A stretch of DNA of 54,218 bases, from contig JAQRMX010000032.1 in NCBI GenBank assembly GCA_028599125.1, positions 1 through 54,218 of the forward strand, written 5' to 3'. The notes under the pieces are model-generated. The model was not told the DNA's origin, ran no database searches, and saw only the letters and a program-made list of their open reading frames with translations. The position numbers and the translations under genes were made by a program. Position 1 is the first letter of the stretch. Every line of letters begins with the position of its first letter. Origin of the DNA: Alphaproteobacteria bacterium (GTDB taxonomy: Bacteria > Pseudomonadota > Alphaproteobacteria > Rhizobiales > NORP267). Shown here piece by piece: positions 13,237 through 26,953 of the stretch.

Positions 13237-13290
13237 ACGCAACGAGGCCTTTCTATATGATGGGCCTCATGCAGGAGGGGCTTTTTTTTT
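13237..13290. terminator. possible terminator region between convergent genes
   Basis: GAGGCC and GGCCTC form a short inverted repeat around a 13-base loop (about 13240-13268), and a second weaker stem (CCTC/GAGG) is followed by a run of nine T on the plus strand ending at the lodB stop codon. The position between the convergent YdcF-like gene and lodB fits termination of the plus-strand transcript. The stems are short, so this is tentative. Confidence 0.4.
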
Positions 13291-14447
13291 CATGGAAAAA
13301 GGAGCTGGCTATCTTGCGTAGACGTCTGGTGACGCTTGGCAGGCAGGGTGGGGTTCGATTCTGAGGGGTGCCGTCGTTTCCAAAAAGGGCTGTCTGAAAA
13401 GCGGGTTTCTTGGGCATAGATTTGTGTTCTCTGATACAGGAAATTATAGCCGCCGCGGAGAATTGTTTCTGTATATTGTTCCTGAAGTCTGAGGTCACCT
13501 TTGAGTGAGTCAGGGATAAATTGGCTGGCCTGATAAGCCATCCATAATGCAGTTGTTATGCCGTGGGAAGACAGGGGATCAAAGACGCAGGCGGCATCAC
13601 CAACGGCGGCCCATCTGTCCCCGGTGGCAGGTTCCTGCCATTTTGTTCCGGCGCTAGAGAGCCGAGGAGGGGTAGGGACGGAAAAGCCTGCGGTCCTGAT
13701 CCACTGATGAATATAATTTGTTTCCTCAATCAGATTGTGCCATGCCTCAATATCCTGATAGAGCTTGCAGGGTAATAGGTCAGGGTCAGAAAAATAACTG
13801 ATAACTAGACGCTGATCCGGCAAGAGCGTGGCATACCACCAGCCATTTTCGACCGCTTCAATCACAGTTGCCGGGGTGGGGGTAATATCTGTATCAACCT
13901 GCTTGAGGAAACAATGTGCGCATACGAGGTGATCAATACGCTGAATTTCTGAGAGAGTTGAGGCTATAATTCTGCGTGATCCTGTGCAGTCAAGAAGGAA
14001 GTCAGCTCTGTAGCTTTCCCCGTTAGAGAGGGACAGCTCCCACTTTCCGGATTTTCTTTCAACGTGAGAGACGTTTGCCGTAACATGCTGCGGATCGGTC
14101 TCCTGCGCGGCTTTATAAAGATCTCCGTCAAAGACCGGTCGATCAAGGATGAGTCCTGGTCCTTCAAGATGGACAGCGGCATTCCGCTCATGGAGCCGCC
14201 CGCTTCCCCAAGCTGAATATATGCTATTGGCAGGCCTATGATACGCGGATCGCAAGAGGGACAGAAGGCCTATTTTTTCAAGGATCGGATTTGCTGCGGG
14301 GGACAGGGTCTCACCAATATGGTCACGGTGGTGAGCGGTCTGTTTTTCCGCAATCCACAAAGGTCGGATACCGATCTGGTCGAGAGAAATACAACAGGCT
14401 GTACCGGCAATTCCACCTCCTGCGATTGCAATGCAGGCTTGCGTCAT
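13290..14447 (-). CDS. lodB: LodB-like FAD-dependent maturase of a quinoprotein oxidase
   Basis: 385 residues. The N-terminal dinucleotide fold is CIAIAGGGIAGTACCISLDQ. Further blocks of the tryptophan-halogenase-like/LodB flavoproteins are GETLSPAANPILEKIGL, LLDCTGSRR, ENGWWYATLLPD and the FAD-contact motif WAAVGDAACVFDPLSSHGI. In Marinomonas, LodB is needed to form the cysteine tryptophylquinone of LodA. Its ATG (14445-14447) overlaps the lodA stop codon in an ATGA arrangement, so the two are translationally coupled and surely work together. The C-terminal 35 residues are Ser/Pro/His-rich and not obviously conserved. That it modifies this particular LodA is inferred from the pairing. Confidence 0.88.
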   Translation of the reverse strand: MTQACIAIAGGGIAGTACCISLDQIGIRPLWIAEKQTAHHRDHIGETLSPAANPILEKIGLLSLLRSAYHRPANSIYSAWGSGRLHERNAAVHLEGPGLILDRPVFDGDLYKAAQETDPQHVTANVSHVERKSGKWELSLSNGESYRADFLLDCTGSRRIIASTLSEIQRIDHLVCAHCFLKQVDTDITPTPATVIEAVENGWWYATLLPDQRLVISYFSDPDLLPCKLYQDIEAWHNLIEETNYIHQWIRTAGFSVPTPPRLSSAGTKWQEPATGDRWAAVGDAACVFDPLSSHGITTALWMAYQASQFIPDSLKGDLRLQEQYTETILRGGYNFLYQRTQIYAQETRFSDSPFWKRRHPSESNPTLPAKRHQTSTQDSQLLFP

Positions 14448-16486
14448 TCCTCTTTATAATTTGCGTTATAAAGGAGTTCTACTGGCCCCCGTTCACTTTC
14501 AACAAAGAGTTGTTCGGGTATCCCCTCCACACTTTCTGTTCCCTTCGGACCGTCTTTCCGGACAATAAAGCCGAGTCTCTCCCATAAATAAACCATATGA
14601 GTAATGCCATCCCAATAGCTTGCATTGGCATGATGGCCGATCCCGGGAACTCCCCGTGACCAAGAAACGCGGGTTTCAAAGAAGGTGCGGCGTTCCTTTG
14701 GCGTCAGGTCAGTGCGCATCAATTGCCTGTAATATTCTTCAGGCAGGACATCAATGGGCAGAAGTGCCGGCCACCAGACGGCGACAGGGAAATCTTGACG
14801 CATTAGAACCTGTTGGCAACTGAAGGCATCACTCTGCCAGGGCAGACCCATCCAGCGCGTCAGATCGCCTGGCATTTGGGGGCCTATTGGCGGCGGGCTG
14901 CCATTGCCCCCTTCCAACAAATTTTTCGGATTAAGCTGACGCCCGATATTGTGGAGCAAGGCAGGCCGGTTGCCGCGCGCGATACGGAAGGGCTCTGACC
15001 GTGTATTATTGTTGCGTGCATACATGGGGGCGTGCCGCAAATAATAGCTTAATTCGACACCGGGATGAAACGCGCCACCGGAGCATGGTTCAAGTGCGGC
15101 CTCTGTAAGCGCATGGGGACGGAGTGCAAGATCGAGATCATCAATATCGGAGACCATATCAAGCTTCTCTTCCTCATAGTCATCTATGAAGTCACCAGAA
15201 ACCCACCGTTCGAGATAGCTACGCTGCAGTTCCGTGAATGAGAGCCACAGGAGGGGACTGTTTTCATAATCAACCCCTTCACCCGGCATGAAGGGCATTT
15301 TCATTCGCTCTTCATGATAATCTTCATTCCCGCGTTTGTTTTTATTGCGCATTTTCGAAAAAAAATCTTGCCGGAATGCCTTATTTTTTCTGCTGGGATC
15401 ATGGAGTTTATGCCATAGGCTCTGATTGGAAAGGTCACCAAAAGTTCCGGTCCATGCCGTACGGAGCCGCTCTACGCCAGAAACCCAGTCCATCAATGCC
15501 AGACGATGAAATATGGGGTGGATATATTTGCGGTAGGAGAGGGGGCTTTCAGGGACTTTATCCCACTTTTTCTTTATATTGAGGTCCTGTATGACATCAT
15601 AGAGCGAAATAATCGGTGCGATTTCCGGAGCGAAATTGGGTCCGACGGTGCAAATCCATGCGCCATCGGCCTTCATTTCTTGCCCGGTATCGAAAGTGAC
15701 TGTTGCATTGATAGATCCGTCACACAAATCATCATACCAGCTCTCATTATCTGAGAAACTTGTGATGGAGGCGTTCACAGGGCTCTTTGAGGTTCCATTG
15801 GCAGGAAAGACCAGAAGGCGTCCGTTTTCGTCAGTGCGCAACTCTCCCAGATTCACCTTGTGTTCATTGTAGAACTTCCCTTCCATCGAATATCTGGGTG
15901 TGACGTTATCCTTCTTGAACAGACGCCCGTTATTTTCGATGGAACTCCCTGATATGCTTGTTTTTCCTCCATCTATGATCAGCATTTTCTCCCGTTCTTT
16001 ATCGGAGGTGATAGAGGGGTTCCGTTGCTTTCCGGGTATTCCGGGAGCCTCTTCTCCATTATCCATCGGATTTCTGAATCCGTACCATGCCGCTTTTGTA
16101 TTCGCGACATGGACGTCCCACTTGATTTTTGCCTCATCTGCTTTGATTTCTCTGATGATTCTGTCTTTGCTGTCGAAGGCATAGACACGAAAACGCTGCA
16201 CCTGCTTTTTGATGCGTTCCATACCATCTTTGTATCCGCCTTCGGGCGGCTTTGCTGAGCCTGGCACTTCTGGAGACAGATACCATTTATCGCTTCCTCC
16301 CACGCGGGATATACCTATAGCGGGGTAAATAGCCAGACGTGCGACAGCGGCATTCCGGGGAGCAACTTCGGGAACATTTGCTAGAGAGACAGAAGATTTG
16401 GCTAGGAAAGGAAAGGACATTGCTACTATGCTTGCGCCATACAGGAAATCGCGCCGGGTAACAGGGGCCTGTTTTTTGTCTGTCAT
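14444..16486 (-). CDS. lodA: LodA-like CTQ-dependent amino-acid oxidase with Tat-like signal
   Basis: 680 residues, start fixed by AAGGAAG upstream of the ATG at 16484-16486. The family oxidises amino acids (LodA: lysine at the epsilon amine; GoxA: glycine), giving ammonia and hydrogen peroxide, with a cofactor built from a Cys and a Trp. Seen here: the N-terminal family block LAIYPAIGISRVGGSDKWYL (about 51-70), HKVNLGELRTDENGRLLVFP (about 209-228), and the cofactor region LPWQSDAFSCQ with Asp553 and Cys557 four apart, as known for Asp512 and Cys516 of LodA. Tryptophans 571-572 (VWWPALLP) are the likely partner. The N-terminus has VTRRDFLYGASIVAMSFPFL, a twin-arginine-type signal with an Ala-rich end at about residue 36. 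The exact substrate cannot be read from the sequence. Confidence 0.88.
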   Translation of the reverse strand: MTDKKQAPVTRRDFLYGASIVAMSFPFLAKSSVSLANVPEVAPRNAAVARLAIYPAIGISRVGGSDKWYLSPEVPGSAKPPEGGYKDGMERIKKQVQRFRVYAFDSKDRIIREIKADEAKIKWDVHVANTKAAWYGFRNPMDNGEEAPGIPGKQRNPSITSDKEREKMLIIDGGKTSISGSSIENNGRLFKKDNVTPRYSMEGKFYNEHKVNLGELRTDENGRLLVFPANGTSKSPVNASITSFSDNESWYDDLCDGSINATVTFDTGQEMKADGAWICTVGPNFAPEIAPIISLYDVIQDLNIKKKWDKVPESPLSYRKYIHPIFHRLALMDWVSGVERLRTAWTGTFGDLSNQSLWHKLHDPSRKNKAFRQDFFSKMRNKNKRGNEDYHEERMKMPFMPGEGVDYENSPLLWLSFTELQRSYLERWVSGDFIDDYEEEKLDMVSDIDDLDLALRPHALTEAALEPCSGGAFHPGVELSYYLRHAPMYARNNNTRSEPFRIARGNRPALLHNIGRQLNPKNLLEGGNGSPPPIGPQMPGDLTRWMGLPWQSDAFSCQQVLMRQDFPVAVWWPALLPIDVLPEEYYRQLMRTDLTPKERRTFFETRVSWSRGVPGIGHHANASYWDGITHMVYLWERLGFIVRKDGPKGTESVEGIPEQLFVESERGPVELLYNANYKEE

Positions 16487-23878: not shown

Positions 23879-23974
23879 GTCTCTGTCTTATAACTTGATT
23901 CATCAATAATTCACTTGATTATTCATCTATTTTCTATTATTGTCAATCTTATAGTATCTCAAGGGATAGAAATT

Positions 23975-24187
23975 ATGATTAACAATGACATCATGACGGT
24001 TAAAGAACTTGCTGAGTATCTCAAAATTGCTGAAAAAACGGCTTACAGATTTGTGTCCGAAGGGAAAGTGCCGAGCTTCAAGGTTGGGAGCGCATGGCGC
24101 TTCAAGAAGGAAGAGATCGATTCGTGGATTAAGGCTCAATGCAGGAATAACAATACTGAAGAACCAAGAAGAAAAAATGAGAACTAG
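23975..24187 (+). CDS. excisionase-like helix-turn-helix DNA-binding protein
   Basis: 70 residues from ATG 23975, preceded by AAGGGA. The sequence MTVKELAEYLKIAEKTAYRF followed by VSEGKVPSFKVGSAWRFKKE and EIDSWI is the HTH_17/MerR-like excisionase domain, intact. Such proteins bind DNA as small regulators or recombination directionality factors. It overlaps the start of a truncated cytosine methyltransferase by about 11 bases; small HTH genes of this type are often linked to restriction-modification methyltransferases, so it may have been the control protein of a lost system. Confidence 0.8.
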   Translation: MINNDIMTVKELAEYLKIAEKTAYRFVSEGKVPSFKVGSAWRFKKEEIDSWIKAQCRNNNTEEPRRKNEN

Positions 24188-25987: not shown

Positions 25988-26014
25988 TTGACACTATTCT
26001 GTGCCGGATATACC
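25988..26014 (+). promoter_or_regulatory. candidate sigma-70 promoter of rplU-rpmA
   Basis: TTGACA at 25988-25993 and TATACC at 26009-26014 with a 15-base spacer, about 155 bp upstream of rplU. The -35 is perfect, the -10 and spacing are only fair. If correct, the transcript would include both leader hairpins. Confidence 0.4.
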
Positions 26015-26072
26015 CTCTTTCGTATTCTGGTTGGCAGGCTATTGTCTGCGGGGATAATTTCCGGCCGCGAGA

Positions 26073-26148
26073 GCGGTTCATTTAGGCATGGAACCGCCTT
26101 TTTCAGGTCGCGCCCTTGTGAGGTGAACGCGACCTGAAAAAGGCGGTT
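26073..26148 (+). promoter_or_regulatory. rplU leader with two mutually exclusive hairpins
   Basis: Hairpin 1: GCGGTTC (26073-26079) pairs with GAACCGC (26091-26097). Hairpin 2: 26092-26112 pairs perfectly over 21 bp with 26128-26148 around a 15-base loop. The 3' arm of hairpin 1 is the start of the 5' arm of hairpin 2, so both cannot form at once. Hairpin 2 ends 19 bases before the rplU start codon, and no T-run follows, so it is not an ordinary terminator. It looks like a switch that could control translation of L21; that role is inference. Confidence 0.65.
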
Positions 26149-26167
26149 ATGTGAGAGGGCGGTTGTT

Positions 26168-26509
26168 ATGTACGCGGTAATCAAGACCGGCGGTAAGCAA
26201 TATCGCGTGGCGTCTGGTGATATTTTGAAGATTGAGAAGCTACCTGCCCAGATCGGCGTTAATGTTGAATTTGACCAGGTTCTCATGGTCGTTGATGATG
26301 AGACGGTTATTGGCAGCCCGCTCATTGAAGGGGCGCGTGTGACGGCGGAAGTCATTGAGCATTCGCGCGGTAAAAAGATCATTATTTTCAAGAAATCGCG
26401 TCGTAAGCACTATCGTCGGCGAAACGGCCATCGTCAGCATGAGACGATTGTGCGCATAGGTGAGGTTTCATTGTCCGCTGCGCGCCCTAGTGTCAAGGAT
26501 GTCGCATAA
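26168..26509 (+). CDS. rplU: 50S ribosomal protein L21
   Basis: 113 residues, family start [20 protein letters not shown] and the conserved basic stretch [21 protein letters not shown] followed by [10 protein letters not shown]21 binds 23S rRNA in the large subunit. It is followed by rpmA and obgE, the standard order. About 19 bases before the ATG a long perfect hairpin ends, leaving little room for the ribosome binding site (GAGAGGGCGG). Confidence 0.97.
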
Positions 26510-26677: not shown

Positions 26678-26953
26678 ATGGCTCATAAGAAGGCAGGTGG
26701 ATCATCGCGCAATGGGCGTAATACGATTGGTCGTCGTCTGGGTGTGAAGAAGTTCGGTGGAGAAAAAGTCAGGGCAGGGAACATCATTATCCGGCAACGC
26801 GGAACAAAATGGCATCCGGGTCTGAATGTGGGCATGGGGACGGATCATACGCTTTTTTCCCTTGTTGATGGTTTTGTTGAATTCCGTGTTGTTTCAAAGA
26901 TTCGTAAGTGTGTCTCTGTTGTTCAGCGCGAAGTGCTGGCGTCGGAGAATTGA
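26678..26953 (+). CDS. rpmA: 50S ribosomal protein L27
   Basis: 91 residues beginning [15 protein letters not shown], the flexible N-terminus that reaches the peptidyl-transferase centre, followed by [20 protein letters not shown] and [20 protein letters not shown]. No N-terminal extension of the cleaved Firmicutes type. GGGGAGA precedes the ATG. Lies 168 bp after rplU. Confidence 0.97.

Follow-up and report, generated by a model that had tools for sequence, protein, structure and literature searches.

The rplU-rpmA operon of the window, the whole 54,218-nucleotide stretch of alphaproteobacterial DNA analysed here, is preceded by a perfect 21-bp inverted repeat. With a probability of about one half, this feature is one very stable 5'-leader hairpin, folded in essentially every full-length transcript and devoid of any switch, that would be a passive, lineage-specific replacement of a different leader structure, "motif 1", found before rplU in the relatives. 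The window's hairpin is of modest interest; the relatives' motif 1 is the better find.

The rplU locus

The source genome (1.43 Mb in 84 contigs, 99.8% complete) belongs to an order called Hyphomicrobiales in this analysis, and the window is its contig 26. The family comprises five other members, the RplU proteins of which are 52-59% identical to that of the window; a second species of the window's genus was not found among the genomes compared. From the leader on, the gene order is rplU, rpmA and obg, encoding L21, L27 and Obg, and a tRNA gene is located upstream of rplU on the opposite strand. A small helix-turn-helix protein (Pfam HTH_17), presumably of the excisionase-like kind, is encoded at 23915-24187 on the + strand, about 2 kb 5' of the rplU leader. 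A gene with LodA (L-lysine epsilon-oxidase) domains (13290-16486, - strand) adjoins that of a flavin-dependent protein matching Trp_halogenase. The leader and the two ribosomal-protein genes display the following features:

25988-26014, + strand: possible promoter TTGACA, 15-nt spacer, TATACC, read from the sequence
26031-26058, + strand: second possible promoter TTGGCA, 16-nt spacer, GATAAT, from a consensus scan (10/12)
26034-26049, + strand: small hairpin GCAGGC-TATT-GTCTGC, in predicted folds starting at 26017
26063-26078, + strand: hairpin GGCCGC-GAGA-GCGGTT, in the minimum-energy fold of 26017-26175
26073-26097, + strand: 7-bp stem, GCGGTTC (26073-26079) paired with GAACCGC (26091-26097)
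26092-26148, + strand: perfect 21-bp stem with a 15-nt loop, AACCGCCTTTTTCAGGTCGCG (26092-26112) paired with 26128-26148; the real feature
26153-26159, + strand: likely ribosome-binding site, purine-rich GAGAGGG, read from the sequence
26168-26509, + strand: rplU, ribosomal protein L21 (Pfam PF00829, E 2e-40), ATG at 26168
26678-26953, + strand: rpmA, ribosomal protein L27 (Pfam PF01016, E 3.6e-37)

The candidate promoter at 25988-26014 is at a distance from the gene similar to that of the relatives' promoters, and its spacer is below the range accepted by the consensus scan. The call at 26031-26058 is weak, since five such sites were found against 2.7 in shuffles.

A perfect 21-bp stem in the leader

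The 21-bp stem described by the earlier note is exact in its coordinates; it ends 19 bases 5' of the rplU ATG and is not followed by a T-run, as had been noted. No other perfect inverted repeat of at least 11 bp (loop up to 60) exists in the window, where about 6e-7 perfect 21-bp stems with loops of 3-60 are expected by chance. Perfect repeats reach at most 15 bp in a 129,278-base sample of the rest of the genome, and perfect stems at most 11 bp among 119 distinct leaders from the order's rplU loci. The leader RNA folds with a z-score of -5.0. A dispersed palindromic repeat was considered and rejected, the stem occurring at a single place in the genome (matched on both strands), as was an intrinsic terminator, no T-run following the stem and the terminator scan being negative there.

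At the top of the long hairpin, CGCCCT (26111-26116) is complementary to AGGGCG (26156-26161) in the region of the ribosome site. A pseudoknot of the hairpin loop (26113-26117) with this site was set aside, as its 6-nt linker would not span a 21-bp stem. The 3' arm (26131-26142) nearly matches a second type of rplU leader, with one inserted base needed. That type, recognised by a regular expression in 14 of 134 leaders (L005, L007, L014, L018, L025, L213, L218, L231, L234, L236, L237, L239, L243 and L244), harbors GACTGRA, then a run rich in A and a hairpin. It shows eight invariant columns in 12 aligned sequences. Among the 14 leaders, L018 and L239 are nearly identical to each other, and in a sample of the carriers Rfam matched nothing but a tRNA. 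A third shared stretch, GCAGATCCCCCACAATGATAGAGTGAA, is found in four leaders of one genus (L228, L233, L241 and L242), with one variant in L233.

Probably one lasting hairpin rather than two states

The earlier note had proposed a leader switching between the 21-bp stem and the 7-bp stem. The latter also lies exactly where it was placed, and the arms of the two stems do overlap, at 26092-26097. It is, however, at chance level: 142 of 500 Markov-shuffled leaders, and 80 of the 119 distinct leaders of the relatives, contain a perfect stem at least as long. On 26060-26175, the computed energies, which ignore co-transcriptional folding, are -38.7 kcal/mol for the 21-bp stem, -34.5 for the 7-bp stem with the remaining 15 pairs, and -10.4 for the 7-bp stem alone. 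The pairing probability of the 7-bp stem does not exceed 0.0009 in four folded transcripts with different ends. It is predicted to form in transcripts that end at 26098, 26110 or 26140, and it may therefore be transient. Folding the leader in silico thus yields one dominant hairpin, and not two exclusive folds of comparable stability; with -38.7 against -34.5 kcal/mol and less than 0.1% of the 7-bp stem at equilibrium, switching between two states is unsupported.

Two further pairings, both absent from the earlier note, involve the same strands. In the minimum-energy fold, 26063-26068 pair with 26073-26078 around the GAGA loop, alongside the 21-bp stem, and this hairpin rivals the 7-bp stem for 26073-26078. 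Furthermore, a third GGCGGTT, next to the start codon (26158-26164), offers AACCGCC (26092-26098) another pairing partner. Both stems were looked for in the leaders of the relatives, the nearest of which are distant (52-59% RplU identity within the family), and neither stem is present in them, an outcome that the earlier note itself had set against its proposal. According to these models, the long hairpin is probably always folded rather than engaged in a two-way switch.

Motif 1 in the leaders of the relatives

The survey of the relatives located the rplU start in 134 of 135 loci, from which the 119 distinct leaders, each 120 nt or longer, were taken. The wider guess of a structured rplU leader peculiar to alphaproteobacteria stands for these relatives, in the form of motif 1, but this structure differs from the window's. 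The layout of motif 1 is UGCGCUGCCC-GA-GGC, a variable hairpin, AAAGUCCGC-loop-GCGGC, then GCC-GMA-GGGCGCGG. Its helices are an outer one (CGC, a bulged U and GCCC, paired with GGGCGCG), an inner GGC/GCC helix and a CCGC/GCGG hairpin. Measured in 20 leaders, the distance from the end of the trimmed motif to the start codon is 12-43 nt.

A 16-leader alignment, A2, was derived from the 20 trimmed leaders by omitting L004, L017, L006 and L033 (long inserts or weak fit). In it, the helices are 99.6% paired, against 29-54% when slid; five pairs carry changes on both sides (1.7 in shuffles), and the inner GGC/GCC helix is invariant. RNAalifold recovers the helices unprompted. In a larger alignment, A3, of 69 sequences (68 distinct), two-sided changes occur at 10 of 16 pairs, in 89 cells against 16 in shuffles. 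A3 is fitted to the model, and these counts therefore lean toward it; many of the A3 sequences had also served to build covariance model R1. A3 contains all 66 genome matches described below (including L186, although this one is not at rplU) together with L033, L038 and L017.

Of the order's 297 genomes searched with the covariance model, 66 have a match, always a single one. In 65 of these 66 the match lies directly 5' of rplU (64 by script, L178 by reading frame), L186 being elsewhere. With a wider model, 20 of 56 additional or repeated leaders match at E 0.01 or better, in a set that is partly redundant (L028 and L223 are from one genome, and the training set had already included the genomes or loci of L027 and L017). 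Forty leaders were hand-picked from rplU places without an R1 match. Just three of 80 named rplU loci (L033, L036 and L038) have a motif 1 match at E 0.01 or better. No motif 1 was found in a 385-genome sample of the class; at least five of these genomes belong to the order, none of them known to match, and the 297-genome search serves as control.

Promoters of the form TTGAC-N16..18-TAWWNT occur within 120 nt upstream of motif 1 in 18 of 28 loci and are absent from 14,000 bases further upstream. The 28 loci are those of L126-L155 without L145 and L149, where the motif is at other coordinates. As these promoters sit just upstream of it, motif 1 is very likely part of the rplU leader RNA.

Against Rfam 15, motif 1 gives no match at gathering threshold in 12 loci, and none that is credible at E up to 5 in one locus. 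A published description was not found by a literature search of main texts, mostly open-access ones, and motif 1 may thus be new in print. Mimicry of rRNA was also considered: the 23S stretch of one genome (L254) contains no exact CCGAGG or GCCGNAGG, with 1001 of its 2694 bases read as N, which spoils the shuffle control, and a 23S search in G000, G002 and G004 gave no match.

Comparison with known leaders

The Firmicutes L21_leader of Rfam (RF00559) is likewise a structured leader before rplU. The earlier note had mentioned this leader, and the window has no match to it, at gathering threshold or at E up to 5; nor do the Rfam families give any supported match at the window's leader. Bacterial lineages tend toward their own leader RNAs for ribosomal proteins. 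RNase III needs a duplex of about 20-21 bp, and the leaders of E. coli pnp and rnc are processed by this enzyme. Like the window, these two have a long duplex in the 5' leader shortly upstream of the start codon, but they belong to RNase genes, whereas the window's gene is a ribosomal-protein gene with a duplex predicted from sequence. At 21 bp, the window's stem attains the duplex of about 20 bp or more expected of an RNase III substrate, in a genome that encodes RNase III. The E. coli rplU-rpmA operon has the same two genes in the same order as the window and is reported to show no response to increased synthesis of its own products (PMC10931766). For the table of 20 leaders in PMC7247131, the accessible portion of that article names rplU only in a reference title.

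Alternative readings

In the switching reading, the 7-bp and 21-bp stems would alternate and L21 would stabilise one of them, opening or closing the rplU ribosome site. The overlap of the arms, the third GGCGGTT copy that could join the exchange, the ribosomal-protein gene downstream and the early formation of the 7-bp stem in shortened transcripts speak for such an autogenous leader. It is nonetheless improbable and was rejected on the energies, which place the 7-bp stem about 4 kcal/mol behind, and because this stem occurs at chance frequency; the stems are also unconserved in the relatives, and the E. coli operon is described as unresponsive (PMC10931766). In the modelled folds, two balanced states are disfavoured and one lasting hairpin is favoured.

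The leader might instead be a strongly diverged motif 1, the 7-bp stem corresponding to the variable hairpin, the long stem to an extended CCGC/GCGG hairpin and GAGAGGGCGG to the closing strand, with the same ligand bound. Both are built of hairpins in the 5' leader directly before rplU, their promoter distance and hairpin order are similar by eye only, motif 1 occurs in all five other members of the family, and some of its members have long inserts. Yet the window's leader lacks the CGC-U-GCCC/GGGCGCG and GGC/GCC helices as well as the GA/GMA internal loop, and the covariance search found no motif 1 in its genome. With models R1 and R2 (from 16 or 69 relatives) and filters off, the leader is not among the matches to E 10. 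Their best scores in the leader itself, 4.0-4.7 bits, are equal on both strands and therefore reflect the palindrome alone. Its mean alignment score to the 16 motif 1 members is 19.25 against 19.24 for shuffles, 82 of 200 of which score at least as high; seven diverged members reach 22-35 in the same test. With no model match and an alignment at shuffle level, membership was rejected, and this divergence is doubtful, to about the same degree as the switch. Motif 1 is read as lost in the window's lineage or changed beyond recognition. A little less remote, though still unlikely, is a neutral by-product, in which a near-palindrome was made perfect by template switching during replication and has no function. 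The perfect complementarity, the single copy and the lack of an equivalent in the 119 leaders of the order are consistent with this origin, but the stem lies in a leader, 19 nt from the start codon of an operon that is essential and highly expressed, where neutrality would seldom be expected.

Possible function and significance

The constitutive hairpin is favoured by a perfect stem far beyond chance that outcompetes the 7-bp stem and by the presence of RNase III. Against it stand the distance of the nearest relatives, the 7-bp stem predicted in shortened transcripts, and the promoter distance and hairpin order, which by eye resemble motif 1. Permanently folded, the 21-bp hairpin would have a passive function, if any. 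It would most likely be an RNase III substrate or an mRNA-stability element, setting either how long the rplU mRNA lasts or how accessible the ribosome site immediately 3' of the hairpin is.

In the relatives, motif 1 may control rplU. Its near-exclusive association with rplU and its covarying fold suggest that L21 (or L27) binds it and represses translation; bound in this way, motif 1 would lower the translation of its own mRNA. Such feedback would be lineage-specific, since feedback regulation is reported to be absent from the E. coli operon (PMC10931766). It is tentatively proposed, at somewhat less than even odds, that motif 1 represents a new class of leader that binds L21 in autogenous control, being widespread in Hyphomicrobiales and replaced by an unrelated long-hairpin leader in the window's small-genome lineage. 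The window is a case in which the motif 1 leader is gone and a structurally different element is in its place. A covarying, single-locus L21 leader in a large alphaproteobacterial order, without a match in Rfam 15, would make L21 feedback there directly testable.
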